From Pseudomonadota bacterium (GTDB lineage Bacteria > Pseudomonadota > Gammaproteobacteria > Acidiferrobacterales > Acidiferrobacteraceae), in NCBI GenBank assembly GCA_021795255.1, contig JAJYPQ010000071.1, forward strand, positions 1 to 13,137: 13,137 bases of DNA. The letters are read 5' to 3'. This document shows positions 1 through 13,137 of this stretch, in pieces; position 1 is the first letter of the stretch, and every line of letters starts with the position of its first letter. The notes below the pieces were generated by a model that had not been told where the DNA came from, made no database searches, and saw nothing but the letters and a program-made list of their open reading frames with translations. The position numbers were made by a program, and so were the translations under genes.

Positions 1-72
1 CGCCATCTGCAAAAGACACCGGATAGGGTGCGATCATTCTTTCAGCATCCGGAGACGCGCTACGCGGCGTAG
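1..72 (+). CDS. possible 3' end of a gene cut by the window edge
   Basis: Frame 1 is open from the first base to a TAG at 70-72 and reads RHLQKTPDRVRSFFQHPETR followed by YAA. The composition (charged, with aromatic residues, no low complexity) looks protein-like, whereas the other two forward frames are Arg/Ser-rich or stop early. With only 23 residues no family can be named. It could equally be chance, because 23 open codons are not rare. Confidence 0.25.
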   Translation, partial: RHLQKTPDRVRSFFQHPETRYAA

Positions 73-234
73 CCATAGTCTCTAAGATATGCACTGATTA
101 GTAAGGAGTCCTTGAGGGTAAAGCCGCGCGCGATTCCTGTTTTTGAGAGCCCGGGGCTTTGCCTCCTATTTCACGCGTTCCAGCATCGCCTGCCCGTCTA
201 TCGTGGGCGAATCCTGAAACAGGAGGACTCGATT

Positions 235-354
235 ATGCTGACCGTAGACGAACCGAGCGCAGTCTACCATCTTCATGAGACGTTCAATATCTTGGAGAAC
301 AACCTGCCCCGTCCTGGGTATTATGCGCTGCGAGGCCTATTATGGTTCGCATAG
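235..354 (+). CDS. small ORF (39 aa) with strong ribosome binding site, unknown function
   Basis: An ATG at 235 is preceded by AGGAGG at 221-226 with an 8-nt spacer, a near-ideal Shine-Dalgarno arrangement and the best in the left part of the window. The product starts MLTVDEPSAVYHLHETFNIL and ends in a hydrophobic, aromatic stretch (YYALRGLLWFA). No signal peptide, no clear membrane helix and no family is recognised. The same frame is open further upstream to a TTG at 112, but the ATG with the SD is the better start. It lies 105 nt ahead of the HEPN gene and could be a leader peptide, a small partner, or the remnant of a larger gene. The SD is the only real support. Confidence 0.35.
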   Translation: MLTVDEPSAVYHLHETFNILENNLPRPGYYALRGLLWFA

Positions 355-360
355 GGGCTC

Positions 361-389
361 TCGAAAGGAACAGCAGCAAACGGTATAAC
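361..389 (+). promoter_or_regulatory. candidate sigma-70 promoter for the HEPN gene
   Basis: TCGAAA at 361-366 (4 of 6 to TTGACA) is followed after exactly 17 nt by TATAAC at 384-389 (5 of 6 to TATAAT). It lies 70 nt upstream of the ATG at 460. The match is moderate and the assignment is by eye only. Confidence 0.3.
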
Positions 390-459
390 GGGGCGCAGGC
401 GACGCTTTTGAGGAGACCGGCTGAGCCGGAAAAGACATAGTCCATTTTGGGGATTCCTA

Positions 460-2199
460 ATGCTTCAGATTAGTAGCGGGAAGTTTTATGCCAGCCGCAA
501 TCCAGAACAATTGGAGGTGACCTGGCATCGCGGCGTCCTCTACACCAACTATCACTGCCTACGCGATCAGATTACGGAGACCGACGTCGGTAAACTTCTG
601 CCCGCCGTTGGGTCGGGAGGGCTCTATACGTTCGTCTGCGAGGTTGTCGAGCGCCTGGAGAAACCGCCTGGCTCCGCGATGGCCTGTAACATCATATCAG
701 TGGGCCCAGATGCGTTCATTGAGGATTTTGCCGCAATCATATCTTTTCATCTTAATGTCATATGCACTCCCGATCACGGTCTCGCACAACGGCTGATCCT
801 GGCGCAAAGACCGGGGCTTGGGATTCCCGCGCTCCCAAAGGCCTACGTGTCGCGAATGTTCGACAGCGACATTTCCTATAAGGAAGACGAATTGGAAGGC
901 CTTAAAGCATTCGTCACGAATCTAATCGGATTAGAGAGAAAGGCCTATGAGAGAGCCATGCGCGCGATTCATCGCTACGTCACAGCCATGCATCGATTGG
1001 CTGACGATCTTGATTTGACGTACGTGCTTTTGGTGGCCTCGATTGAATCTTTGGTGCAGGGATATGATGCGTTTACTACCGGATGGCATGATCTGTCGGC
1101 ACAGAAGCGTAAGCCCATCGACGACGCATTGGAGGGGCTAGGAGAAGACGTTGTCACTCGTGTTCATCAGGCGGTTCTGAAGTCCGAACATGTTGCGCTC
1201 AAGAGGCGGTTTCTTGAATTTACCCGCCATCATATAGAACCTCGGTTCTTCCGGGACGAGGCCAAGGATCAATTACACCCGGCAGGGCGTACAGAGCTTT
1301 TTGAGGGGGTGAAGAAGGCCTACGATTTGCGTTCTGCATACATCCATGCTTTAACACCCCTCCCAAAAAACCTAGTCGTCCACCCGGCGCATACTGACAT
1401 ATTTCTCCTCGATTCCGATCCTCATTTGACCTTCCACGGATTGGCCAGGGTGGCACGCCACGTCATTATGGAGTTTATAGATCAGTCACCCAAGGTGGAG
1501 CGGGAAGAGTTCGTCGACTACGTGTCATCTTACCCCAATATTGGGCGTTACAGGGCTGCGCCGCAGTGTTGGATAGGGAATGCAGAGAATTATTCGCACA
1601 AGACAGCCCGTCAATACCTCAATGGCTTCCTCGAGCGGTTAGCGGTGTGCCTGCGGGATCGCGGCCAGAAGCTTGGTGACATGCAGGCAGTGCTTACGGA
1701 AATTGAGAATCGTGTCCCGTCGCTCGCTACACCTGAGCAGAGAATGCCGATGTTGGCACTCCATCGCCTATTCCAGCCCTACCTGCCCGATGAGAAGAAG
1801 GCCGGAGCGGCAGCATTCCTTGACAAGTACCGAGCGGAATTCGACGTACCGTCTATCGAAAGCCTTATAGTTCAGTGTTTAAATGGCGAGCAGACACCCG
1901 ACTGGGGGCTGGAGGAGAGCGACCGACTTCTAAGGGAGTATAACGTACAGCGGTTTCAGAGAAACGGCGTGAACGCTGGCTCATTAACTGGCGCAGCGCT
2001 CATCCTCTGGGTAGCGGAAATGCATCGCAAGGCGGGCCAAGATGGCTGTGTGCGGAAATGTATCGCCTATGCAGTCGAGGAGTATCCGCAGGAGAAGGGC
2101 TTATACAAGTTGGAAAAAAACCTAGCTGAGGGGGATATCCCCGAGATCCGATGGCAGGATGTTCTATTGCCAGAACGTGCGAGGACTGCGCCCGCATAA
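460..2199 (+). CDS. HEPN-domain protein, candidate RNase defence effector (579 aa)
   Basis: This large soluble protein has no membrane helix or signal peptide. Residues about 155-300 are strongly helical and contain R-S-A-Y-I-H at 291-296, which is the R-x4-H signature of HEPN ribonucleases; it follows a hydrophobic helix around LTYVLLVASIESLVQ. The arrangement resembles ApeA-type HEPN domains, in which the motif sits in the last helix. The first 150 residues and residues 350-579 match nothing I recognise; the latter is mostly helical and may sense a trigger or bind a partner. HEPN proteins in defence islands usually cleave RNA after phage recognition and stop growth; applying that here is inference. 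ATG 460 is preceded by TTGGGGA ending 6 nt upstream, an acceptable but weak SD. No antitoxin-like gene is adjacent except possibly the 39-aa ORF. Confidence 0.8.
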   Translation: MLQISSGKFYASRNPEQLEVTWHRGVLYTNYHCLRDQITETDVGKLLPAVGSGGLYTFVCEVVERLEKPPGSAMACNIISVGPDAFIEDFAAIISFHLNVICTPDHGLAQRLILAQRPGLGIPALPKAYVSRMFDSDISYKEDELEGLKAFVTNLIGLERKAYERAMRAIHRYVTAMHRLADDLDLTYVLLVASIESLVQGYDAFTTGWHDLSAQKRKPIDDALEGLGEDVVTRVHQAVLKSEHVALKRRFLEFTRHHIEPRFFRDEAKDQLHPAGRTELFEGVKKAYDLRSAYIHALTPLPKNLVVHPAHTDIFLLDSDPHLTFHGLARVARHVIMEFIDQSPKVEREEFVDYVSSYPNIGRYRAAPQCWIGNAENYSHKTARQYLNGFLERLAVCLRDRGQKLGDMQAVLTEIENRVPSLATPEQRMPMLALHRLFQPYLPDEKKAGAAAFLDKYRAEFDVPSIESLIVQCLNGEQTPDWGLEESDRLLREYNVQRFQRNGVNAGSLTGAALILWVAEMHRKAGQDGCVRKCIAYAVEEYPQEKGLYKLEKNLAEGDIPEIRWQDVLLPERARTAPA

Positions 2200-2324
2200 G
2201 TCGAGGCGAAGTATTGGCCTGATAATAGGTCGTAATGACCTCCAAGATAGGTCACAGAGGTGCCCGAAGGGCCTTGCGCCGGTCGCCCGAGGCGGGTACT
2301 GAGGTGTCGTGGTGAGATGGACGG

Positions 2325-2355
2325 TTGAGCGTTTTCACCAAATCCGCGCTAATAT
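2325..2355 (+). promoter_or_regulatory. weak promoter candidate upstream of the type ISP remnant and hsdM
   Basis: TTGAGC at 2325-2330 (TTGA matches the -35 consensus) lies 18-19 nt before CTAATAT at 2349-2355. If real, it would have served the ancestral type ISP gene starting at 2409 and would now drive the hsd operon through the leader. Only 4 of 6 positions match in each box, so this is tentative. Confidence 0.22.
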
Positions 2356-2368
2356 CCCCCTATCACAA

Positions 2369-2384
2369 GCCCGGATCACCGGGC
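2369..2384. promoter_or_regulatory. perfect 6-bp inverted repeat (possible operator or hairpin)
   Basis: GCCCGG-ATCA-CCGGGC forms a perfect 6-bp stem with a 4-nt loop, 25 nt upstream of the ATG at 2409. Its place between the promoter candidate and the first start codon suits an operator or 5'-UTR hairpin. No T-run follows, so it is unlikely to be a terminator. Confidence 0.3.
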
Positions 2385-2408
2385 GATTCGGCCACCCGAG
2401 ACCCAATC

Positions 2409-2603
2409 ATGACCACGATCCACACTATTCTGGACGATCTTGCCCCCATAAGTACCGATGGCCGCGATAAAGGCGAGAAGCAAGGGCCGGCGGGCCTGCC
2501 TTCTCGGCTTCCGGCCAGGGTTACGAGCCTCGTAGAAGACGCAGAGGCGGACGATTGCCATTCTAGCGTTGGCTACGACGGCCGCTTAGCTTTATTTGGG
2601 TAA
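2409..2603 (+). pseudogene. N-terminal remnant of a type ISP restriction enzyme, now a 64-aa leader ORF before hsdM
   Basis: From ATG 2409 the first 25 codons begin MTTIHTILDDL and continue with STDGRDKGEK. This is the style of N-terminus I know from type ISP (LlaBIII-like) restriction-modification helicases, typically T-I-H-x-I-L-x(n)-S-x-x-R-D-x-G-x-K-F-E-R. At the point where F-E-R-L is expected (about 2484) the similarity stops. The frame then runs through about 39 unrelated codons to TAA at 2601-2603, whose last bases lie in the hsdM ribosome binding site. No SD is obvious before 2409. The assignment is strengthened by the C-terminal piece of the same family at 9378-9860. What is seen is a short open frame; identifying it as a type ISP remnant is family recall. 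It may still be translated and couple to hsdM. Confidence 0.55.
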
Positions 2604-2612
2604 GGACTGACC

Positions 2613-4232
2613 ATGCACTGGATCGCTCCCTCTGCAAAAGATGCTGCGGCGACAACGCTGGAAAAGCACCTATGGGATACCGCAGACCAGTTTCGGGCTA
2701 ATTCTGGCCTGAAGGCACAGGAATACTCCGGTCCCATTCTCGGTCTCATCTTTCTGCGCTTTGCCGAAGTCCGTTTCGCCATCCAGCGCACAAAACTTGA
2801 AAGCACCAAGGCCTCTTCCAGGCGCGTTAGCCGAGTTGACGAGCCCGCGGCCTATCATGCCGAAGGCATTCTGTATCTAAGCCCCGAGGCACGCTTCGAC
2901 CACCTGCTGACCCTCCCTGAGGGGGCCGATATCGGTGCCAAGGCCAATGCAGCGATGCGCGAGATCGAAAAGCATAACCCGCAGCTCGGCGATGTCCTGC
3001 CCAAAACGTACAACCTGTTTACCAGTACCCTGCTCAAGGAACTGCTGAAGAAGGTCTCCGAAATCCCCGCTAGTACAGACTACGATGCCTTCGGCCGCGT
3101 CTACGAATACTTTTTGGGCGAATTTGCTCGTACCGAAGGTCAGAAGGGCGGTGAGTTCTACACGCCGAGCAGTATTGTGCGCCTACTCACCGAGGTGATC
3201 GAACCCTTTCACGGCCGTATCCTGGACCCGGCCTGTGGCTCTGGCGGCATGTTCGTGCAGTCAGCACGGTTTGTGACCGAGCACCAGAAGAACCCCGCCG
3301 CCGAGCTTGCCCTCTGCGGCGTCGAGAAGACGGATGAGACTGGCCGCCTCTGCCGCCTTAACCTAGCCGTCCATGGGCTGGAGGGTAACATTCGCTATGG
3401 TGGTAACATCAACAGCTACTATGATGATCCGCATAATGCGACAGGAGAATTCGACTTTGTCCTCGCCAACCCGCCGTTCAACGTCAACGCAGTGGACAAG
3501 GAACGGCTGAAAGACATGGTGGGCCCCGGACGCCGCTTCCCATTCGGTCTGCCGCGCACCGACAACGCCAATTATCTGTGGATTCAGCTCTTCTATTCAT
3601 CGCTCAATGCCCAGGGCCGGGCGGGTTTCGTTATGGCCAACTCGGCCTCCGATGCCCGATCCTCGGAGCAGGAATTACGGAAACAGCTGATCGAAGCGCG
3701 GGCGGTGGACGTAATGGTCGCCGTCGGCCCCAATATGTTCTACACCGTCACGTTGCCCTGTACGCTCTGGTTTCTCGATAAGGGCAAGGCCCAGTCACCG
3801 CGTGCCGATACGGTGCTCTTTATCGACGCCCGCCATATCTACCGGCAGGTGGACCGGGCCCACCGCGACTGGACACCCGCGCAGATCGGCTTCATGGCTA
3901 ATGTCGTGCGCCTCTATCGCGGCGAAGCCCTCGATCTCACGCTCGGTGGCAATGAGGCCGGAGCCAAGATCAAGGACGTCTTCGGCGAAAGGCCTACCTA
4001 CACCGATATACCCGGCCTGTGCAAAGCGGCAACGCTTCAGGAGATAGAGGCGCAGGGTTGGTCGCTCAACCCGGGACGTTACGTCGGTGTCGTGCCGGGC
4101 GAGGAGGTGAGCGACGAGGATTTTAAGGAGCAGTTCGAAGCATTGAATGAGGAGTTGGAGTCACTGAATGCCCAGGCGCGGGATCTGGAGCAGACCATTG
4201 CCGCGAACGTGGCGGGGATTCTGGGGACCTGA
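2613..4232 (+). CDS. hsdM: type I restriction-modification DNA methyltransferase, M subunit
   Basis: This is the N6-adenine methyltransferase subunit. With HsdS it methylates the host's recognition sites, and it is also part of the restricting complex with HsdR. At 539 aa it has normal HsdM length. The N-terminal helical domain (about residues 15-150, with L-W-D-T-A-D-Q-F-R and G-L-I-F-L-R-F) precedes the catalytic domain. GGEFYTP is followed by the SAM-binding motif [10 protein letters not shown] (D205-F214) and the catalytic motif NPPF (N286-F289) that marks adenine-N6 enzymes. The last about 45 residues are a Glu/Leu-rich coiled coil, as expected for contact with HsdS. TAAGGA at 2601-2606 ends 6 nt before ATG 2613, a good SD that supports this start. 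The TGA stop overlaps the hsdS ATG by one base, implying coupled translation. All key residues are present, so it should be active. Confidence 0.96.
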
Positions 4233-5461
4233 TGATGAACTCTGCCGACTGGAAGATGGTACCAATTAAGGATCTGTACGAAGGGCTCTACGATGGTCCA
4301 CATGCGACACCGAAACCGTTCGAATGCGGCCCCGTATTCCTTGGAATCAAGAATGTCACCGATGATGGTCGCCTTGATCTCTCTGAGATTCGGCATATTG
4401 CCGAAGATGATTTCGCGACTTGGACGCGCCGGGTTGAGCCAAGAGCCAATGACCTAGTTTTTACCTACGAAGCGACTCTGAACCGTTACGCCTTGATACC
4501 TCCAGGTTTTCGTGGATGTCTAGGTAGGCGCATGGCTTTGATTCGTACTGATCCGCGCAAGGTCGATGTGCGATTCCTTCTGTACTATTTTTTCACCGAC
4601 GAGTGGCGGGCAGTCATTCGACGCAAGATGCTCACGGGTGCGACGGTTGATCGTATTCCGCTCACCACGTTTCCGGATTTCCCCGTTCGTACTCCACCAC
4701 TTCCCATCCAACAACGCATCGCCGGCATCCTTTCGGCCTACGACGATCTTATCGAAAACAGCCAGCGCCGCATCAAGATTCTAGAGGCTATGGCTCGAAA
4801 TCTCTACCGCGAGTGGTTCGTTCACTTCCGGTTCCCTGGCTTTGAGAACCACCGACGTGTTGCTTCCCCTCTTGGGGAGATTCCGGAGGGGTGGGAGGTT
4901 AAGAAGTTGGGCGAAATTGCTGAAAACATACGCCGTAACGTGCAGAAGGGCCAACTCGGCGACCCGCAGCCCTACGTCGGCTTGGAACATATACCGCGCC
5001 GTTCGCTTGCACTCGATGCGTGGGAGACGACCACTTACGTCGGCTCAAACAAGCTGCAATTTAAGAAAGGCGAAGTCCTTTTCGGTAAGATTCGCCCTTA
5101 TTTCCACAAGGTCAGCGTCGCTCCGTTCGACGGCCTGTGCTCTGCAGATACTATCGTTATCCGCGCCCGTCGCCCCGAACATTACGCTTTCGTCGTAGCT
5201 TGTGTTTCTAGCGATGATTTCGTCGCCCATGCGACCGCAACGTCAAATGGCTCCAAGATGCCGCGCGCTAACTGGAGCGTATTGAAGAACTATGATGTGG
5301 TAATTCCCACCAGTGCGATCGCTGCCCGGTTTACGGACTTTTTTTGTAACAGTATTGCTGAACAACAAACACTCGTGTTCCAAACTTACAACCTCCGCCG
5401 CACCCGCGACCTCTTGCTACCACGTCTACTCTCCGGTCAGATCGACCTTGAGTCTGCCTAA
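4232..5461 (+). CDS. hsdS: type I restriction-modification specificity subunit
   Basis: HsdS gives the type I complex its bipartite DNA recognition site. The 409-aa product shows the standard two-part plan: a first target recognition domain (about 1-154) and a central conserved region beginning PPLPIQQRIAGIL at 155. The long helix of that region (through Y-D-D-L-I-E-N-S-Q-R-R-I-K-I-L-E) sets the spacing between half-sites. The second target recognition domain opens with L-G-E-I-P-E-G-W-E-V-K-K-L and runs to about 360, followed by a C-terminal conserved helix ending L-L-L-P-R-L-L-S-G-Q-I. Both repeats are complete, so no half-subunit or phase-variable swap is apparent. The start is the first of two adjacent ATGs (4232, 4235), within TGATGATG; either could be used. 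The recognition sequence cannot be read from the protein by eye. Next gene begins after 3 nt. Confidence 0.94.
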   Translation: MMNSADWKMVPIKDLYEGLYDGPHATPKPFECGPVFLGIKNVTDDGRLDLSEIRHIAEDDFATWTRRVEPRANDLVFTYEATLNRYALIPPGFRGCLGRRMALIRTDPRKVDVRFLLYYFFTDEWRAVIRRKMLTGATVDRIPLTTFPDFPVRTPPLPIQQRIAGILSAYDDLIENSQRRIKILEAMARNLYREWFVHFRFPGFENHRRVASPLGEIPEGWEVKKLGEIAENIRRNVQKGQLGDPQPYVGLEHIPRRSLALDAWETTTYVGSNKLQFKKGEVLFGKIRPYFHKVSVAPFDGLCSADTIVIRARRPEHYAFVVACVSSDDFVAHATATSNGSKMPRANWSVLKNYDVVIPTSAIAARFTDFFCNSIAEQQTLVFQTYNLRRTRDLLLPRLLSGQIDLESA

Positions 5462-5464
5462 GCC

Positions 5465-6202
5465 ATGAATAATGACCTGATGAGCGAGGTGGAGTCCTTA
5501 AAGAACATATTGGTCTCGGTAGCCACGGGCGGGGAAGGTGATGACGTTCGGTACCGGGAACTGCGCCGAGAGTTAATCGCCTTACCGCGTATCGCGAAGA
5601 CCCTCCCTCAAGTCGTTCAGGATTGCCGCGATCTCTCGGAATTCTGGGGATTTATTCAGCCAAAGTTCGCAACGTATGCCGAACGTCGGGCGTACCTGCG
5701 CCGCGAGTTTGATCCTTTGCTGAATTTTCTGGAGGCAGAGGTTGGCGCACCCAGCGATTCCGTAATATCGATGACCATTGGTGTGGTGGGTTTAGATTTT
5801 ATTCAGGAAGCGTGGCACAAGGCACTGGAACGCCGCGCCAGGGATGCGGAAGGCGCGATTACCGCTGCGCGCACGCTCGTGGAATCCGTATGCAAGCATA
5901 TCCTCGATTCGACGGATACACCCTATGACGACGGCGCGGATCTCCCCAAGCTCTATACGTTGACAGCAAAGCAACTCAGCCTCTCGCCCAGCCAGCACAC
6001 CGAGCCATTGTTCAAGCAGATCCTCGGGGGCTGCCAGACGGTTGTGCAAGGGTTGGGCGCAATACGCAACCGGCACAGCGACGCGCACGGCAAAGGAGCC
6101 GCCGGGACAAGGCCCACGGCGCGTCACGCCGAATTGGCAGTCAACCTGGCGGGCACTATGGCGACCTTCTTGTTGCAGACGTGGGAGGTCCGGCAGAAGT
6201 GA
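5465..6202 (+). CDS. Abi_C-like HEPN protein inside the hsd operon (245 aa)
   Basis: The C-terminal 115 residues follow the abortive-infection C-terminal (Abi_C) pattern. A-R-T-L-V-E-S-V-C-K-H-I-L lies at about 135-147, then D-L-P-K-L-Y, then a stretch V-V-Q-G-L-G-A leading to R-N-R-H-S-D-A-H-G at 201-209. R201-x6-H208 fits the HEPN RNase motif. The N-terminal about 120 residues are helical and unassigned, with no membrane segment. The gene starts 3 nt after the hsdS stop with no clear SD, and its TGA overlaps the GTG start of hsdR, so it is an integral operon member probably translated by coupling. Known type I loci carry growth-arresting genes in the same position (PrrC anticodon nuclease), which fire when restriction is blocked. 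A similar guard role here is inference; the target RNA is unknown. Confidence 0.85.
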   Translation: MNNDLMSEVESLKNILVSVATGGEGDDVRYRELRRELIALPRIAKTLPQVVQDCRDLSEFWGFIQPKFATYAERRAYLRREFDPLLNFLEAEVGAPSDSVISMTIGVVGLDFIQEAWHKALERRARDAEGAITAARTLVESVCKHILDSTDTPYDDGADLPKLYTLTAKQLSLSPSQHTEPLFKQILGGCQTVVQGLGAIRNRHSDAHGKGAAGTRPTARHAELAVNLAGTMATFLLQTWEVRQK

Positions 6203-9200
6203 CTCACTCCTACACCGAAGAGCAACTCGTTGAGCAACCCGCCATTGAGCTATTTGCCACCCTGGGTTGGCAGACCGTGTCGGCAATGGATGAGATCTTG
6301 GGCCGGGAAGGTACACTAGGGCGCGAGACGAAGAGTGAGGCGGTGTTGATGCCCCGGCTACACGCCGCGTTGACGCGGTTCAACCCGACACTGCCGGCGG
6401 ACGTGATCACGGCGGCCCTCGATGAACTGGCTCGCGATCGTTCAGCGATGAGTCTGGAAGCCGCGAATCGGGAGATCTATCGGCTGCTCAAGGACGGCCT
6501 CACCGTGTCGGTCCCGGATCGCCAACACGGGGGGCAGAAGACAGAGCGCCTGCGCGTGGTCGATTGGGAGCGCCCCGAGAACAACGATTTTCTGGTGGTC
6601 AGTCAGTTCAGTGTGACCGGCGCGCTCTATACCTGCCGGCCCGATCTGGTCGGATTCGTCAATGGTCTGCCCTGGGTGGTGATCGAGCTCAAGAAACCGG
6701 GTGTGCCGGCGCGGACCGCTTACGACGAAAACCTCACCCACTATAAGGAACAGATTCCCGCGCTGTTCTGGTTCAACGGGCTTTTGATCGCCTCCAACGG
6801 CACCGATAGTCGTGTCGGTTCCCTGACCGCGCAATGGGATCGGTTCTTTGAGTGGAAGCGGATCGAGCGCGAGGATGAACCCCGGCGCGTGTCGCTGGAG
6901 GTGATGTTGCGCGGCACCTGCGACCGCACCCGTCTCCTGGATCTGGTGGAGAACTTCACGCTGTTTTCTGAACATGAGGCGGGGCTTGTCAAGATCCTTG
7001 GTCAGAACCACCAGTACCTCGGCGTCAATAATGCGATTACGTCTCTCAGTGAGGCTCGGGCTCTCGGCCACGGGCGCGGCGGGGTGTTCTGGCAGACGCA
7101 GGGCAGCGGCAAAAGTTTCTCCATGGTGTTCTTTGCCCAGAAGGTACTGCGGAAGATCGCCGGCAACTGGACGTTCGTGGTCGTCACCGACCGCGTGGAG
7201 CTAGACGAGCAGATTGCCAAGACCTTCAAAACCACGGGCGCGGTGTCGGCGGCCGAGGGAGATCAATGCCACGCGACCAGTAGCGCCCATCTGCGTGAAC
7301 TGCTGCGCGGCAATCACCGTTACGTCTTCACGCTGGTGCAGAAATTTCAAACGCCCGAGCAGCTCTGCGACCGCTCCGATGTGGTGGTGCTGACCGACGA
7401 GGCACACCGTAGCCAGTACGACACGCTGGCGCTCAATATGCGCGCGGCCTTGCCCAAGGCGACGTTCCTGGCTTTTACCGGTACACCCTTGATTGCGGGC
7501 GAAGAGCGCACGAAGGACGTCTTTGGCGACTACGTCTCCATTTATGACTTCCAGCAGTCCATTGAAGACGGCGCCACGGTGCCGCTCTTCTACGAGAACC
7601 GCACGCCGGAATTGCAGCTGGTGAACCCTGACTTGAACGAGGATCTCTACCAGCTGATCGAGGACGCCGAACTCGACCCTGAGCAGGAAGCCCGGCTCGA
7701 ACAGGAACTCTCCCGCCAGTACCACCTGCTGACCCGCGATGACCGGCTGGAAGCCGTCGCCCAGGATATCGTCCGGCATTTCCTGGGCCGGGGCTTCGTC
7801 GGGAAGGCGATGGTGGTGTCCATCGACAAGGCCACTGCCGTGCGCATGTACGACAAGGTGAAAAGCCACTGGACGGCGGAGACTGCGCGGGTGCAGGAGG
7901 AGCTGGGCGAGCTCGCTTACCTTCCGCGTAGGGGCGAAACGACCCCTGAGCAGGCCCGACGCGATCGGCGTGTGATGGATCTTAAGGCCCGCCTCGACGT
8001 GCTGACCACTACCGACATGGCCGTCATCGTATCGCCCGGCCAGAACGAGATCCCGCAGATGCAGAAACTGGGCCTCGATATCGCGACGCACCGCCAGCGC
8101 ATGAACGCGTCGCAACCAGGCCTTGCGGAGAAATTCAAGGACACCGAAGACCCCCTGCGCCTGGTGTTTGTCTGCGCCATGTGGCTCACAGGTTTTGATG
8201 CGCCGAGCTGCTCGACTGTCTATCTCGACAAGCCAATGCGCAATCATGCCCTGATGCAGACCATTGCGCGCGCCAACCGAGTCTTCCCCGGCAAGCACAG
8301 CGGTGTCATTGTCGACTACGCCAACGTCTTCGCGTCGCTGGAAAAGGCGCTGGCGATCTACGGGGCAGGCAAAGACGGCAAAAGCCCCGTCAAGGATAAG
8401 CGCGCGTTGGTTGAGGCGCTCAATCAGGCGTTGGCGGACGCCACGACCTTTTGTGCTACCCAGGGTGTGTTGCTAGCGGAGATCGAGGCGCTGGCCGCCG
8501 GCAGTATGGCCCGCTTGCAGAAGATCGAAGACGCCCTAAACGCGCTGATCTCCCCCGATCCCATGCGGCGCGAATTTTTGGCCCACGAACGGTGGGTGGG
8601 TACGCTCTATCGCGCCGTCAAACCCGATCCCGCAGCGTTGGCATGCACCCATCGGGTAGCCTGCCTCGCCACACTGGCTGACGCCATTCGCGTCCGGCTG
8701 AGCCCGAACCCGCCGGATATCTCGCAGGTGATGAGCCGAATCAATGAGCTGCTCGATGCATCCATTACGGGCCATGAAATCCGCGAGCAAGGGCCGCCAG
8801 CCCTTGACCTCTCCAAGATCAATTTCGAGGCCCTGGCGCAACGCTTCAAAGAATCCAAGCATCGGAACACGGACATCGAAGTGCTGAAGGCGGCCATCCG
8901 GGCCCGACTCGATAAGATGATCTCATTAAACCGAACGCGCGCCGACTTCGCCGAGAAGTTTGAGGCGCTGATTGAAAGTTACAATGCTGGTAGCCGCAGC
9001 ATTGAGGAGCTGTTTGAGGAGCTCGTCAAGCTCTCCCACAGTCTCAACGACGAGGAGCAGCGCCATGTGCGCGAGGGCTTGAGCGAGGAAGAGCTCGTGA
9101 TGTTTGATATCCTGACGCGTCCGGCACCGGAGCTGACTTCTCAGGAACGCGCTGAGGTCAAAAAGATGGCACGTGAGCTACTGGATCGCGTTAAAGCCCT

Positions 9201-9390
9201 GCTGGTACTGAACTGGCGGCAGAAATCGACAGCCCGCTCGCAGATTAAGATGACCATTGAAGATGCTCTTGATACCGGCCTACCACGCGCTTACACCCCG
9301 GAGATCTACCGACAGAAGTGTTCGGCTGTGTTCGAGCATGTGTATGAGAGCTACCCCGAACGAGATGGGCGGGATTCGTGGCGGACTTAA
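6199..9390 (+). CDS. hsdR: type I restriction enzyme, R subunit (translocase and endonuclease)
   Basis: HsdR binds the HsdM-HsdS methyltransferase, pumps DNA with ATP and cuts unmodified DNA. I chose GTG 6199 because it makes a 4-nt GTGA overlap with the upstream stop and has GGGAGGT at 6183-6189, 9 nt away; an in-frame GTG at 6181 would add six residues without an SD. From 6199 the protein is 1063 aa, normal for the family. The PD-(D/E)XK nuclease is complete: D149, E163, K165 (P-D-L ... I-E-L-K), the spacing seen in EcoR124I. The helicase has Walker A Q-G-S-G-K-S (K305), DEAH at 400-403, F-T-G-T-P, and a late motif Q-T-I-A-R-A-N-R. The C-terminus has the usual P-R-A-Y-T-P-E-I-Y and V-F-E-H-V-Y-E-S-Y. 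The last ten residues (ERDGRDSWRT) look atypical and may come from the junction with the next gene, which overlaps by 13 nt. Confidence 0.95.
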   Translation: MTHSYTEEQLVEQPAIELFATLGWQTVSAMDEILGREGTLGRETKSEAVLMPRLHAALTRFNPTLPADVITAALDELARDRSAMSLEAANREIYRLLKDGLTVSVPDRQHGGQKTERLRVVDWERPENNDFLVVSQFSVTGALYTCRPDLVGFVNGLPWVVIELKKPGVPARTAYDENLTHYKEQIPALFWFNGLLIASNGTDSRVGSLTAQWDRFFEWKRIEREDEPRRVSLEVMLRGTCDRTRLLDLVENFTLFSEHEAGLVKILGQNHQYLGVNNAITSLSEARALGHGRGGVFWQTQGSGKSFSMVFFAQKVLRKIAGNWTFVVVTDRVELDEQIAKTFKTTGAVSAAEGDQCHATSSAHLRELLRGNHRYVFTLVQKFQTPEQLCDRSDVVVLTDEAHRSQYDTLALNMRAALPKATFLAFTGTPLIAGEERTKDVFGDYVSIYDFQQSIEDGATVPLFYENRTPELQLVNPDLNEDLYQLIEDAELDPEQEARLEQELSRQYHLLTRDDRLEAVAQDIVRHFLGRGFVGKAMVVSIDKATAVRMYDKVKSHWTAETARVQEELGELAYLPRRGETTPEQARRDRRVMDLKARLDVLTTTDMAVIVSPGQNEIPQMQKLGLDIATHRQRMNASQPGLAEKFKDTEDPLRLVFVCAMWLTGFDAPSCSTVYLDKPMRNHALMQTIARANRVFPGKHSGVIVDYANVFASLEKALAIYGAGKDGKSPVKDKRALVEALNQALADATTFCATQGVLLAEIEALAAGSMARLQKIEDALNALISPDPMRREFLAHERWVGTLYRAVKPDPAALACTHRVACLATLADAIRVRLSPNPPDISQVMSRINELLDASITGHEIREQGPPALDLSKINFEALAQRFKESKHRNTDIEVLKAAIRARLDKMISLNRTRADFAEKFEALIESYNAGSRSIEELFEELVKLSHSLNDEEQRHVREGLSEEELVMFDILTRPAPELTSQERAEVKKMARELLDRVKALLVLNWRQKSTARSQIKMTIEDALDTGLPRAYTPEIYRQKCSAVFEHVYESYPERDGRDSWRT

Positions 9391-9860
9391 AGACGATGTT
9401 GCCTTGCATCCCTTATGCAGACGACTTCTGGGCTTTCAGCCGGGCCGGCCGCGCCCTGGGCGACTGGCACCTGCATTACGAGACCGTGGAGCCCTACCCG
9501 TTGACCGAGGACGCCCCGCAGCCCGTGACAGACCCCGATGAGTACCGGGTCACACACATGGCGTTTGCCAAGCGGGACGGGAAGCCCGACAAGACCGCCA
9601 TCATCTACAACGCCCACCTGACCCTACGAGGCATCCCGCTCGAAGCCTACGACTATGTTGTGAACGGGAAATCCGCGATTGAGTGGATCATGGAGCGGTA
9701 CGCGGTGACGATCAACAAGGATTCCCAGATCCGGAACGATGCGAACGACTGGCAGTGGTCGGAGGACCCGCGGTATATCGTGGATCTGGTGAAGAGGGTC
9801 GTCAGGGTGAGCGTGGAGACGATGGGAATTGTGGAGGGGTTGCCATTCATCGGCATTTGA
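9378..9860 (+). pseudogene. C-terminal fragment of a type ISP (LlaBIII-like) restriction enzyme, intact 160-aa ORF
   Basis: Every part of this ORF resembles the last part of the specificity domain of type ISP single-chain restriction-modification enzymes. It has L-P-C-I-P-Y-A-D-D-F-W-A-F-S-R-A-G-R-A-L, then W-H-L-H-Y-E-T-V-E-P-Y, K-T-A-I-I-Y-N, I-P-L-E-A-Y-D-Y-V-V-N-G-K-S-A-I-E-W and the closing V-K-R-V-V-R-V-S-V-E-T-M-G-I-V. Full-length enzymes are around 1,600 residues, so about nine tenths are missing: nuclease, helicase, methyltransferase and most of the recognition domain. The GTG at 9378 lies 10 nt before the hsdR stop in another frame, and the similarity begins almost at that codon. 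The frame is undisturbed, which suggests a recent event or continued expression. I call it a fragment; a retained DNA-binding or complex-stabilising role cannot be excluded. Confidence 0.8.
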
Positions 9861-9936
9861 TGTGCTAACGAGGATAGCGTACTAATGGTTTCATGCGCCC
9901 AACGTTATTGGTCAGATCCCAACTTTCGGTCTCGCC

Positions 9937-10839
9937 ATGGACAGTAATGTTCCTTACATTGCCAAATTTTTACGACTTTGGTCACGGTTAAAAAAGTCCA
10001 GTAAGCCATTGTTTAAAAAGGACCGCGCTAATTTTTACATTTCGTTTTGGGCAATTGTAATATCGTTAGTTTCGGCAGGTTATACGTGGCGCGATACCAC
10101 GGTTGATATTGCTGATAAGCAGTATTTATTTTGGGACAAGATGAATTCGTCTTACAAAATCCAGCAACACATATTGCAGAAATTGTACCCTATGCTTTGG
10201 TTGAAATCGGTTAAGGCAGTATATATCAGCAGATACATCCATGGTGACACGCTATCTTGTCAGGCTTTTGCAGATAATGGTGGCCAAAGCTACACAAGGA
10301 AAATAGGGCGTTCTTTACAGAACGTAACCTCAATTGGGCTTACAAAATATGAAGGTGACGAGGAATCCGCTCTGCAAACAACTACGCTAGAGATGGAGTA
10401 TCTTGCGCTGTCTCTACACCCAAAGGGCTGGAATGAGTTCTTGGCAAACACGGCATACTCTTATGTGTGGTGGAATAGATTATCAGTGGATACTATGCAA
10501 CTATCTTATTTTCCCAGCGTGTGGAGATTGAATTGTACTTCTAGCAAGAAACAATTGAAAATAAGCCATATTAAAATAAGCCAGAAATACGCCAGACGTT
10601 TTAGACGCGACATCAAGACCGTGTACAGGTGGCTCCCGGTCATAAAAGACGGGGAAACGCCAAATTTAATGTCTATTAGTTATCTCGAGCAACGCAACGC
10701 TTCCAGGACTGAGCTTGCCAATAACACTGTCCAAGAGTTTTATGGCGCTCAGCCGCTTTCCAAAATGAACGATGCTCTATCAAAAATCTTATATATCATC
10801 TCAACGGTGTCTAAGAGCCATAAAAGCGGCAACAAATGA
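9937..10839 (+). CDS. one-pass membrane protein of unknown function, A+T-rich gene (300 aa)
   Basis: I do not recognise the family. A basic N-terminus (K19-K20, K23, K27-K28, R30) precedes one hydrophobic segment at about 33-51 (F-Y-I-S-F-W-A-I-V-I-S-L-V-S-A-G-Y-T-W). This predicts an inner-membrane anchor with a cytoplasmic N-terminus and a roughly 245-residue domain outside the cytoplasm, if the positive-inside rule holds. The main domain is rich in aromatic residues and Ser, with a basic patch at K-Y-A-R-R-F-R-R. Only two cysteines could be spotted in it (near 102 and 200), and no catalytic motif was found. The gene is clearly richer in A+T than the hsd genes (24 of 60 bases are G or C at 10021-10080), indicating separate origin. 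No clear SD precedes ATG 9937. A 48-codon ORF starts on its stop. Confidence 0.75.
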   Translation: MDSNVPYIAKFLRLWSRLKKSSKPLFKKDRANFYISFWAIVISLVSAGYTWRDTTVDIADKQYLFWDKMNSSYKIQQHILQKLYPMLWLKSVKAVYISRYIHGDTLSCQAFADNGGQSYTRKIGRSLQNVTSIGLTKYEGDEESALQTTTLEMEYLALSLHPKGWNEFLANTAYSYVWWNRLSVDTMQLSYFPSVWRLNCTSSKKQLKISHIKISQKYARRFRRDIKTVYRWLPVIKDGETPNLMSISYLEQRNASRTELANNTVQEFYGAQPLSKMNDALSKILYIISTVSKSHKSGNK

Positions 10840-10982
10840 TCGTTATCGAGAGTGGCGAAGCAGCTCGAACGGTCATAACGGTCTCCTGGGTATGGCCCAC
10901 AAGCCGATGGGTTTACGTGAGACCTTACAAGGGCGTTCAGGAGGCCTGGAGGCACTCCGGTGGGCCAGATTTTTATGCGTAG
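10836..10982 (+). CDS. small ORF (48 aa) overlapping the upstream stop codon, unknown function
   Basis: ATG 10836 overlaps the TGA of the membrane-protein gene in an ATGA junction, the classic layout for coupled translation. The product begins MIVIESGEAARTVITVSWVW and ends in V-Q-E-A-W-R-H-S-G-G-P-D-F-Y-A before TAG 10980. Composition is protein-like, with five Trp residues and alternating hydrophobic stretches, but no family is recognised. It is too short for statistics, and chance is a real alternative. If genuine, it may be a partner or inhibitor of the membrane protein. Confidence 0.35.
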   Translation: MIVIESGEAARTVITVSWVWPTSRWVYVRPYKGVQEAWRHSGGPDFYA

Positions 10983-11230
10983 GCGTTGGCATTTTCTTTA
11001 CGGAGCATCGGTGAGATACACTCATGGGGATACGGTGACGGTGTGCATTTCGGGATTCCGGGGAGGTGAACGCGCACAGTCATACGCGCCCTAAAGGGTG
11101 CCGTTGGCTCAGCTTAGAGAGACAGACGCGGTGGCGCCTCGGTGTTCAATTCCGTTAGTGTCTGCGCGTGCCCTGATAATCACCATACCCGTTTTCGGCA
11201 TCCCGCCACTTTTGGGTAAGACAGTGGACC
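10983..11230 (+). other. intergenic region before the zinc-ribbon nuclease gene
   Basis: With the 48-aa ORF left out, no gene is supported between 10840 and 11230. The stretch has one short hairpin (CCCT-AA-AGGG near 11090-11099) without a T-run, and a GATAAT (5 of 6 to the -10 consensus) at 11175-11180 that lacks a good -35 box 16-18 nt upstream. A promoter for the downstream gene most likely lies here, but I cannot place it with confidence. Confidence 0.3.
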
Positions 11231-13015
11231 ATGGATATACCGACTTTCCTAGAGATTGGCCGAGTAGACGATACTTGCCCGCATTGCAGCTTGGGGCTCG
11301 CGAAGCGCCCTGGTAAAAAGACCCCGTGCCCGCATTGTGGCGCTTTAATTTTTGTGAAGACTCGTCGCCTTGATAGGCGGCGCGTCCTGGTAACTCAAGA
11401 AGAAGCTGGTTCCTTGGCCTCCGAGTGGGCACAAAGAATGATCTTCGTGCCAGACACCTACTTAAAGGCCCACAAAGCGCAGATGAAGCGAGGCCGAAAG
11501 CTCGCCCTAGTCTCCCAGGGGGACGGGCTCATAATGCCATCGCTATCAAAGGAGGAAAAGCCTGGGGTCGTACTGGGGTGGATCACGAATTGGGGGGATG
11601 TGGTGAACGCAGGGGATGTCCTGCTGGTACTACAAACTCACTGCGGATTTCTCAGTATGTGCGCACCGACATCGGGCTTTTTGGCATCCTGCTACGCCCA
11701 GATTGGGCGAGTCGTCACCGACGGCGACTACGTGGGCAGGCTCAGCCACGAAAGACCTAATGAGTTTCGGGTGCACGTGCACAAGGTGCAGCCGCCCGGC
11801 CTTCCGCAGTGCCTACGTATTAGTTATCAAACCGGCTTTACCTTAGTGGCGCGCGAGTGGGTTTGTCCTGACGCGGACGGAATCGCGGGCGATATGGGGA
11901 AGCGATGGTGGCTCGAACGAATGGGTCGCCTTCCCGTCAACATTGATGATGCGCTTCAGATGGCGACCGAGTTGCCGCCACCTAAGGCAATTCACGCCAC
12001 AAAGGGTGATATCGAGCGGATAGAGTATTCGTTGCCCCTAAAAAACGGCATAGCTATTTTTAAGGGGAACAATAGCGCGTTTCTCCTATGTGAGGATGAA
12101 AGAGAGATGGAGGAATGCCGAAAATCCGTCGTCCTTGAATCGAGTTATGGAGGCCATTTACCGGCGCCGTCGTGGTGGCCCCGCATTCCCGGGAACACGA
12201 TAGCGGCCGGTCCTGGAGGGTTAGAAATCATTCAGCGTGCTCTTGAGAGGTCCCGCCAGTTAGCTGAGATCAATGAGGGCCTTTCATATACCACACCATC
12301 ACAGGCCGCCCGGAATCTGTCTATGGCTTATTCGGTTCACGAGTCCCCGCTCCCAGAAGAGATCCTGTGTTTTGCCCGCCGACCGTATGATCGGGTAATC
12401 CCTCACCACCCTGACCAGTTCAAGGATAAATTGCGGTCAATGGCCGACGCGTCTTGGCTTCAGCGGGTAATAGGACCGCTACAGGACAATGACCAAGCAA
12501 GACTTCGTAGCGGATTGGTGTTTTGTGCGGGTGGCTACGCATTGGAGGATCTGCTCCTACCATGTCAGGACCTGGTGAGTCGGTGCCATAACGATGGACC
12601 GTTTCGTGATGCGGTGGACGTTATAGTGCGTGAATGCGTAGATTCTGTTCGGGTCGCGAATGGTCTACCACGGATCGGAGAGGGCTGGATAACGGAAACT
12701 GAGCTTTATAATCGAGTTTGCAGGATGCTCGAAAACGAAGAGGTAATTCACCATGGAAGGCCGCCCTGGATTGGGGCGCAGCACTTAGACATATGGGTTC
12801 CGGGAAGGCGGCTTGCAATCGAGTATCAGGGTGAACAGCATTTTTATCCGATCTCCTTTTTCGGAGGAGAGGACGGGCTAAAGGCAGCGCAAGAGCGTGA
12901 TGAGAAGAAAAGGCGGCTCTGTGCGCAAAATGGCATTCGCCTTATTGAGGTTAGCTTTGAGGAAAATATTACGGACGAGCAATTGGCGCTACTGATCTCG
13001 GGGGACAAGACGTAA
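11231..13015 (+). CDS. zinc-ribbon / lipoyl-like / PD-(D/E)XK nuclease fusion protein (594 aa)
   Basis: Three parts can be read. Residues 16-36 form a CPHC...CPHC zinc ribbon (C16, C19, C33, C36). Residues about 86-170 have the barrel-sandwich pattern of lipoyl/biotinyl carrier domains: G-D-V-V-N-A-G-D-V-L-L-V-L, then Q-T-H-C-G, then A-P-T-S-G-F-L and G-R-V-V-T-D-G-D-Y-V-G. The position that carries the modified lysine in E-T-D-K-A is C138 here, so covalent lipoylation or biotinylation is not expected. The C-terminal about 110 residues look like a PD-(D/E)XK nuclease: E in T-E-T-E-L-Y, then L-D-I-W-V-P-G-R-R-L-A-I-E-Y-Q-G-E-Q-H (D520, E531, Q533, H537) and a helix with Q-E-R-D-E-K-K-R. The middle (170-490) is unassigned. 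No membrane segment is seen. SD before ATG 11231 is poor. A sensor-plus-nuclease defence protein is the likeliest reading; its substrate is unknown. Confidence 0.8.
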   Translation: MDIPTFLEIGRVDDTCPHCSLGLAKRPGKKTPCPHCGALIFVKTRRLDRRRVLVTQEEAGSLASEWAQRMIFVPDTYLKAHKAQMKRGRKLALVSQGDGLIMPSLSKEEKPGVVLGWITNWGDVVNAGDVLLVLQTHCGFLSMCAPTSGFLASCYAQIGRVVTDGDYVGRLSHERPNEFRVHVHKVQPPGLPQCLRISYQTGFTLVAREWVCPDADGIAGDMGKRWWLERMGRLPVNIDDALQMATELPPPKAIHATKGDIERIEYSLPLKNGIAIFKGNNSAFLLCEDEREMEECRKSVVLESSYGGHLPAPSWWPRIPGNTIAAGPGGLEIIQRALERSRQLAEINEGLSYTTPSQAARNLSMAYSVHESPLPEEILCFARRPYDRVIPHHPDQFKDKLRSMADASWLQRVIGPLQDNDQARLRSGLVFCAGGYALEDLLLPCQDLVSRCHNDGPFRDAVDVIVRECVDSVRVANGLPRIGEGWITETELYNRVCRMLENEEVIHHGRPPWIGAQHLDIWVPGRRLAIEYQGEQHFYPISFFGGEDGLKAAQERDEKKRRLCAQNGIRLIEVSFEENITDEQLALLISGDKT

Positions 13016-13046
13016 CCCTCAAGAAGAGGCTGGATCATGCCCCGAC

Positions 13047-13094
13047 GGCCACCCAAACTCCCCCAGCTGTGGCCACCTGAAAATCCCCCACCTG
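13047..13094. repeat. tandem 23/24-nt repeats resembling an IS21-family terminus
   Basis: Copy 1 (13047-13069) and copy 2 (13071-13094) share GGCCACC, an A-run, TCCCCCA and CTG, differing by one indel and a few substitutions. Repeated GGCCA...AAAAT-CCCC units are typical of the ends of IS21-family elements as I remember them. No transposase lies to the left, so if this is an end, the istA/istB pair should lie beyond the right edge. The repeat is seen directly; the IS21 label is recall. Confidence 0.5.
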
Positions 13095-13098
13095 GATG

Positions 13099-13135
13099 GC
13101 GTTACAGTGACGAATTGGTAGCGTCACTGTAACGC
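13099..13135. repeat. perfect 14-bp inverted repeat, 9-nt spacer, at the window edge
   Basis: GCGTTACAGTGACG at 13099-13112 is matched exactly by its reverse complement at 13122-13135, with a 9-nt spacer. It directly follows the tandem repeats, so it is probably part of the same mobile-element end, as a transposase site or an operator. It could also form a strong RNA hairpin, but no T-run follows within the window. Confidence 0.7.
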
Positions 13136-13137
13136 AT

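Follow-up and report, generated by a model that had tools for sequence, protein, structure and literature searches.

Type ISP restriction enzymes are single chains of about 1,600 aa that combine an Mrr nuclease, a helicase, a methyltransferase and a C-terminal specificity domain. Insertion and substitution events, through which R-M systems move into loci and replace them, were reportedly described by the Kobayashi group in 2010. Those events resemble the one analysed here in that an R-M system replaces a locus, but recurrent nesting in type ISP genes was not found among them in the literature searched, and the open-access literature searched yielded no account of type ISP genes with R-M modules nested inside them. 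In the enterobacterial immigration control region, R-M systems replace one another between constant borders (PMC12707154). Fast turnover of R-M systems despite their rarity on mobile elements is treated as an open question in another study (PMC4176335).

We analysed a window of 13,137 nucleotides from a member of the Acidiferrobacteraceae (contig JAJYPQ010000071.1, positions 1 to 13,137), in which a complete type I R-M operon has very probably taken the place of the interior of a type ISP gene that was resident there (Table 1). The site resembles the immigration control region and defence islands like it, where alternative R-M systems occur between constant borders; there the borders are conserved neighbour genes (PMC12707154), whereas in the window they are the ends of the displaced restriction gene. 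Among described enzymes, LlaBIII and LlaGI represent the kind of gene to whose ends the window remnants are closest, and compared with them the window lacks the nuclease, the helicase, the methyltransferase and part of the specificity domain. The operon has the same HsdM, HsdS and HsdR, with the expected domains, as other type I R-M operons, and differs from the usual ones in its position between ISP ends, in the Abi_C gene between hsdS and hsdR, and in an altered HsdR end.

Table 1. Coordinates of the ISP remnants and the type I operon in the window.
Feature	Position	Strand	Evidence
Kept ISP 5′ region	2335..2408	+	contains GCCCGG-N4-CCGGGC; aligns with upstream DNA of L001 2516 and L115 1115
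ISP N-terminus remnant, 24 codons	2409..2480	+	81% DNA identity to intact L001 ISP; peptide E 2e-6
Spacer	2481..2612	+	5′ junction ~2480; no similarity above shuffles
hsdM	2613..4232	+	PF02384 4e-76, PF12161 1e-18; PDLC03035 6e-234
hsdS	4232..5461	+	PF01420, two stretches; PDLC03172 7e-115
Abi_C (AbiJ-like) accessory gene	5465..6202	+	PF14355 1.8e-22; PDLC02347 6e-21
hsdR	~6199..9390	+	PF04313, PF18766, PF11867; TIGR00348 above cut-off
ISP C-terminus remnant, ~157 codons, still open	9375..9860	+	PF18135 2.8e-40; 78% DNA identity to L001; tail HMM 7e-70

The first-pass annotation had proposed a type ISP-like N-terminus at 2409-2483 and an ISP C-terminal ORF at 9378-9860, both on the + strand and in the right order, as traces of one restriction system substituted for another. 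Alignment bore this out, since both pieces match the two ends of a single intact ISP gene, in locus L001, on the same strand and in the same order. Window positions 2398-2480 matched the start of that gene (L001 5682-5764, E 4e-14), the encoded peptide was 78% identical across 23 residues, and positions 9382-9845 aligned with L001 10002-10456. The 3′ ORF (9378-9857, 160 aa) covered profile positions 211-342 of 342 in PF18135 (Type_ISP_C) and 1472-1638 of 1646 in the PADLOC profile PDLC03597, and it was also matched by our own HMM of ISP tails. Its ISP homology extends from ~9375 to ~9845, and the 3′ junction corresponds to residue ~1436 of the L001 enzyme. The limits of ISP similarity, first put near 2484 and 9378, shifted to 2480 and ~9375. 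The 5′ frame (2409-2600, 64 aa) had no Pfam, NCBIfam or PADLOC match at E <=0.1, and the 5′ remnant is detectable solely through DNA and short-peptide alignment. With the 3′ ORF as query, 93 loci were fetched (the best 80 of 266 genome loci, plus 13 viral loci), and L001 was the best match among them for both ends. What is left, 24 codons of the N-terminus and a part of PF18135, does not make up a type ISP enzyme; ~4.2 kb of ISP interior is missing, and 6.9 kb of other DNA stands in its place.

Comparison with other ISP remnants extended the homology 5′ of the old ATG, to ~2335-2340. The 100 bp preceding this ATG matched the DNA upstream of a second ISP remnant in L001 (at 2516) across ~65 bp (~2338-2403, score 48) and that upstream of the L115 remnant (at 1115) across ~50 bp (~2334-2384, score 40), and neither score was reached by any of 300 dinucleotide shuffles. 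Since two other ISP 5′ remnants share this upstream DNA, the old 5′ region was kept, and with the tail homology this upholds the proposal that both the old 5′ region and the old 3′ end were retained. The upstream DNA was not shared with L104, where 15 of 300 shuffles reached the score, or with the intact ISP copy of L001 (85 of 300). Between the leader and hsdM lie 132 bp without ISP similarity, which gave nothing above shuffles against the post-leader stretch of the L001 ISP gene, three other leader spacers or the DNA upstream of hsdM in L100. The HsdR stop lies ~15 bp inside the tail; this and the spacer correct the first claim of a nearly seamless fit of the operon.

The reference gene in L001 is an intact ORF of 1618 codons (5639-10495), which encodes a true type ISP enzyme, as its end-to-end match to the solved LlaBIII shows (4xqk; query residues 9-1591 of 1601 aligned to chain residues 19-1574). 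The second ISP leader in the same locus is followed by an AAA_15 gene and an opposite-strand 400-aa gene, and then by the intact ISP gene. L001 and L115 both belong to genome G001. A search of 96 relatives of this genome with the leader DNA gave matches in 2, G001 itself and G026. An intact ISP gene between the same outer genes as in the window was not found in the loci compared. The window flanks outside the ISP parts had no match in the first 93 loci, nor did positions 1901-2330 and 9846-10445 in the loci compared later. The ORFs flanking the operon, at 460-2199 (579 aa) and 9937-10839 (300 aa), belong to no significant family in Pfam, NCBIfam or PADLOC. A 594-aa protein encoded beside the operon (11231-13015), with a weak Biotin_lipoyl match and DUF2726 below cut-off, is possibly a defence gene product.

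All four genes of the hsdM-hsdS-Abi_C-hsdR operon, which had been called complete from the outset, carry the expected Pfam or PADLOC domains, and together they constitute a complete predicted type I R-M system. HsdM has HsdM_N and N6_Mtase domains, HsdS has two target recognition stretches (PF01420), and HsdR, whose start position was set from the homologue P0001, has an HSDR_N nuclease, a SWI2/SNF2 motor and a C-terminal domain. The C-terminus of HsdR reads ...YESYPERDGRDSWRT, ~15 bp of it being read from the ISP tail. Its last residues in the window are DGRDSWRT, at a place where most relatives have -GVYA or a similar ending. In the 120 listed HsdR homologues, GVYA occurs within the last 40 residues of 85, GVYA or a close form in 113, and neither in 5; the DGRDSWRT ending was found in two, P0001, which differs from the window HsdR by one internal residue, and P0002, which is 90% identical. 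Because the assemblies of P0002 and of the ISP tail P0124 have identical contig counts (18) and longest contigs (31,609 bases), these two very likely lie together. A junction common to a lineage with a 10% diverged HsdR predates the divergence of the two lineages, and this suggests an older event. The locus had initially been described as a snapshot of restriction-system turnover; the replacement is supported, but it is not a fresh event.

No donor locus with the outer edges of the operon was identified among the loci compared. The nearest genome copy of the operon, L100, has a 76% identical HsdR and shares no edge DNA. A plasmid search with HsdR matched 2,639 records, each below 60% protein identity, and one with window positions 2380-7400 returned 62 records, none covering more than 80% of the query and, in the rows listed, at most 17%. 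In viral contigs, neither a close HsdR (29%) nor the junction was found. The accessory gene varies among type I operons, being Abi_C in the window (5465-6202), a 317-aa gene in L100 (5609-6562) and a weak PIN_3 match in L115 (5514-6407).

The arrangement is not confined to the window. In L115, an ISP leader of 21 codons is followed by an hsdR-hsdS-PIN-hsdM operon of another type I family and by a frameshifted ISP tail that starts at the hsdM stop codon. In L116, of the same genome, HmaB and HmaC genes are followed by an ISP tail fragment at most 4 bp from the HmaC stop; an ISP leader was not found in contig bases 1-4500. L104, in G026, has an ISP leader of ~29 codons followed by unrelated genes, and no ISP tail was found in that genome. 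This lone leader (G026:C49) lies in a defence-like island, with a SIR2_2 gene upstream and a Pycsar effector (PycTM) gene downstream. Related phage-type integrases are encoded 3′ of the L001 ISP gene (14350-15527) and of the L115 remnant operon (14695-15690); the former adjoins a tRNA-Asn, and no tRNA was found at the latter. Not counted as replacements were L117, L118 and L039, in which tails or additional tails are present.

In four further loci, from or near Verrucomicrobia, ISP parts enclose type II modules or other methylase modules; the record taxa of two of them are Verrucomicrobia (L019) and Akkermansia muciniphila (L021). In L127 (G598), the ISP gene runs to residue 549 in a 574-aa frame (Mrr_cat_2 6e-48, ResIII 6e-25), is followed by a C5 methylase and a type II endonuclease (PDLC03534, 2.7e-121), and resumes as a tail from residue 1378. 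L126 (G456) has ISP residues 528-688 from the contig end, an HTH gene with a C5 methylase, and a tail from 1390, while L019 (G438) has ISP to residue 277, a 364-aa gene without family together with an opposite-strand N6 methylase, and a tail likewise from 1390. L021 (G439) has the ISP upstream region to the ATG and no ISP N-terminus, followed by an Eco57I-type methylase (two overlapping frames), a T5orf172/ResIII gene and the tail. Upstream homology between L021 and L019 stops at ATGGC; this ATG (4981) lies in the methylase frame of L021, but that frame opens earlier, at 4885, so that use of the old ISP start codon by the methylase is likely only. Of the 11 regions fetched in the search that gave L126 and L127, six were examined: besides these two, L129, L133 and L135 have no R-M system between ISP parts, L136 is the region of L021 itself and not a separate case, and L128, L130, L131, L132 and L134 were left out as their ISP tails lie at contig ends.

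A structured element of ~155 nt was seen 5′ of Verrucomicrobial ISP genes and of other genes, namely RadC, C5 methylase, ResIII and PLD-helicase genes (L019 4386-4560, L021 4741-4915, L045 3103-3280, and also L149-L159). It has a GC stem at its 3′ side, in many cases with a U-rich run after it, and is a candidate leader RNA. The 227-nt region of L019 had a folding z of -6.3, and a consensus of 14 rows (L160 and L161 dropped, without shuffle control) had 47 pairs, 22 of them with double changes. Two stretches searched against Rfam gave no match above cut-off. Of 387 genomes, 14 have the element, and 3 of the 14 have it through matches of fewer than 30 bases only.

Among the first 93 loci, 58 had a near full-length ISP gene in one alignment and 10, including L019, had one in several pieces; 18 begin at the locus edge, and the 7 others are L021, L027, L055, L061, L087, L088 and L091. 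In the class to which G001 belongs, 19 of 369 genomes had PF18135 matches (36 in total). Replacement of the ISP interior is thus uncommon but repeated. In the phylum of G438, 58 of 387 genomes had PF18135, and an R-M or methylase module lay between ISP parts in 3 genomes (G438, G456 and G598) of the 9 examined for short matches; 3 of 58 carriers is thus a lower bound, since 9 of the 58 were examined in this way, and G439 was found separately. A lone 243-aa ISP C-terminal piece on two related viral contigs (L087 9785-10516, L088 4182-4913) is possibly a remnant or a decoy. Stand-alone ISP tails of 152-154 aa were seen in P0134, P0146, P0159, P0176, P0186 and P0193, with longest contigs of 15-54 kb, and five of these six begin at a conserved Met before PRxP.

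Replacement of the ISP interior would have taken two recombination joins, the first just within the 5′ end and the second in the 3′ part encoding the specificity domain, and the old enzyme would be removed in the same event that installs the new one. The kept ISP 5′ region may still help to drive the type I operon by promoter capture. Both activities of an ISP enzyme reside in a single chain, so that loss of its middle part would abolish restriction and modification together and should avoid self-restriction, which may make such genes safe sites of turnover.

A different reading of the nested modules takes the ISP ends as a reusable shell, in which homologous recombination in the 5′ region and the 3′ tail repeatedly swaps R-M modules. 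Related leaders and tails do enclose two different type I operons, in the window and in L115. The tails of L126 and L127 are 91.6% identical in DNA from the same right junction, and those of L019 and L021 are 84.6% identical, again from one junction, while the modules to the left differ in each pair; the 5′ elements of L019 and L021 are 81% identical, and that of L045, which has an intact ISP gene, is related at 71%. The recurrence of nested modules suggests that ISP ends may serve as recombination arms for R-M swapping. Homologous arms are favoured by the right junctions that loci with different modules share, whereas varied left breakpoints (~residue 549 in L127, ~688 in L126, ~277 in L019, the ATG in L021) and differing outer flanks speak against a simple exchange at one site. 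In addition, right breakpoints vary among the cases in the window's kin (~residues 1436, 1499 and 1503), the spacers after the leaders have nothing in common, and module swapping at one site was not seen. We regard the reusable shell as possible, though rather less probable than not.

That a mobile element inserted into the ISP gene and was trimmed by later deletions is unlikely. The ISP tail of L002 is interrupted by unrelated DNA that we take to be an insertion-sequence end, and that of L061 adjoins genes that presumably belong to an IS66 element, but a Pfam scan of 9 window frames gave no transposase or integrase profile.

In the loci compared, replacement lacks a relative with an intact ISP gene between the same outer genes and a donor locus, and three further findings count against it: the 72-bp leader lacks a profile match, codon models show no neutral decay of the tail, and a tail tree of 18 rows places the window with L001 instead of P0124 (weak support, 89/72), a grouping not expected from one shared event. 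In this tree the cut tails stand on long end branches (window 0.21, P0124 0.11) compared with those of L001 (0.014), L002 (0.021) and P0122 (0.022). Nonsynonymous to synonymous codon changes were 18:37 on the window side and 3:31 for L001 plus L002 (Fisher p 0.011), although the window branch had an omega of ~0.04, like the background, and neutral evolution along the whole branch was rejected in two analyses (lnL lower by 9.0 and 10.9). Either a late cut on the branch or remaining constraint would explain this signal, and we lean towards a late cut. The stand-alone tail could instead be a working part retained by the new system, such as an additional DNA-binding subunit; it is still open, neutrality across its branch is rejected, and its gaps relative to L001 comprise whole codons in the window, as those of P0124 comprise whole residues. 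The long branches, the nonsynonymous excess, the partial PF18135 and the frameshifted tail of L115 make such a function very improbable. An assembly chimera that joined ISP ends to an R-M contig is scarcely credible: L019, L021 and L001 do come from metagenome assemblies, but the HsdR ending recurs in the 90% identical protein from an assembly of 18 contigs, which speaks against it, and the parallels in other genomes match in strand and order.

Replacement of the ISP interior by the type I operon thus remains our reading of the window. More tentatively, and with some doubt, type ISP genes might be general platforms for landing and exchange, their ends serving as recombination arms and their promoter as an expression signal, into which unrelated type I, type II and other methylase systems have repeatedly been swapped in at least two phyla, with self-restriction avoided since both activities are lost together. 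In several genomes, scars of one restriction gene flanking another document its replacement directly and mark the breakpoints. A preference for single-chain enzymes as targets, if there is one, would explain how R-M systems can be displaced without killing the host.
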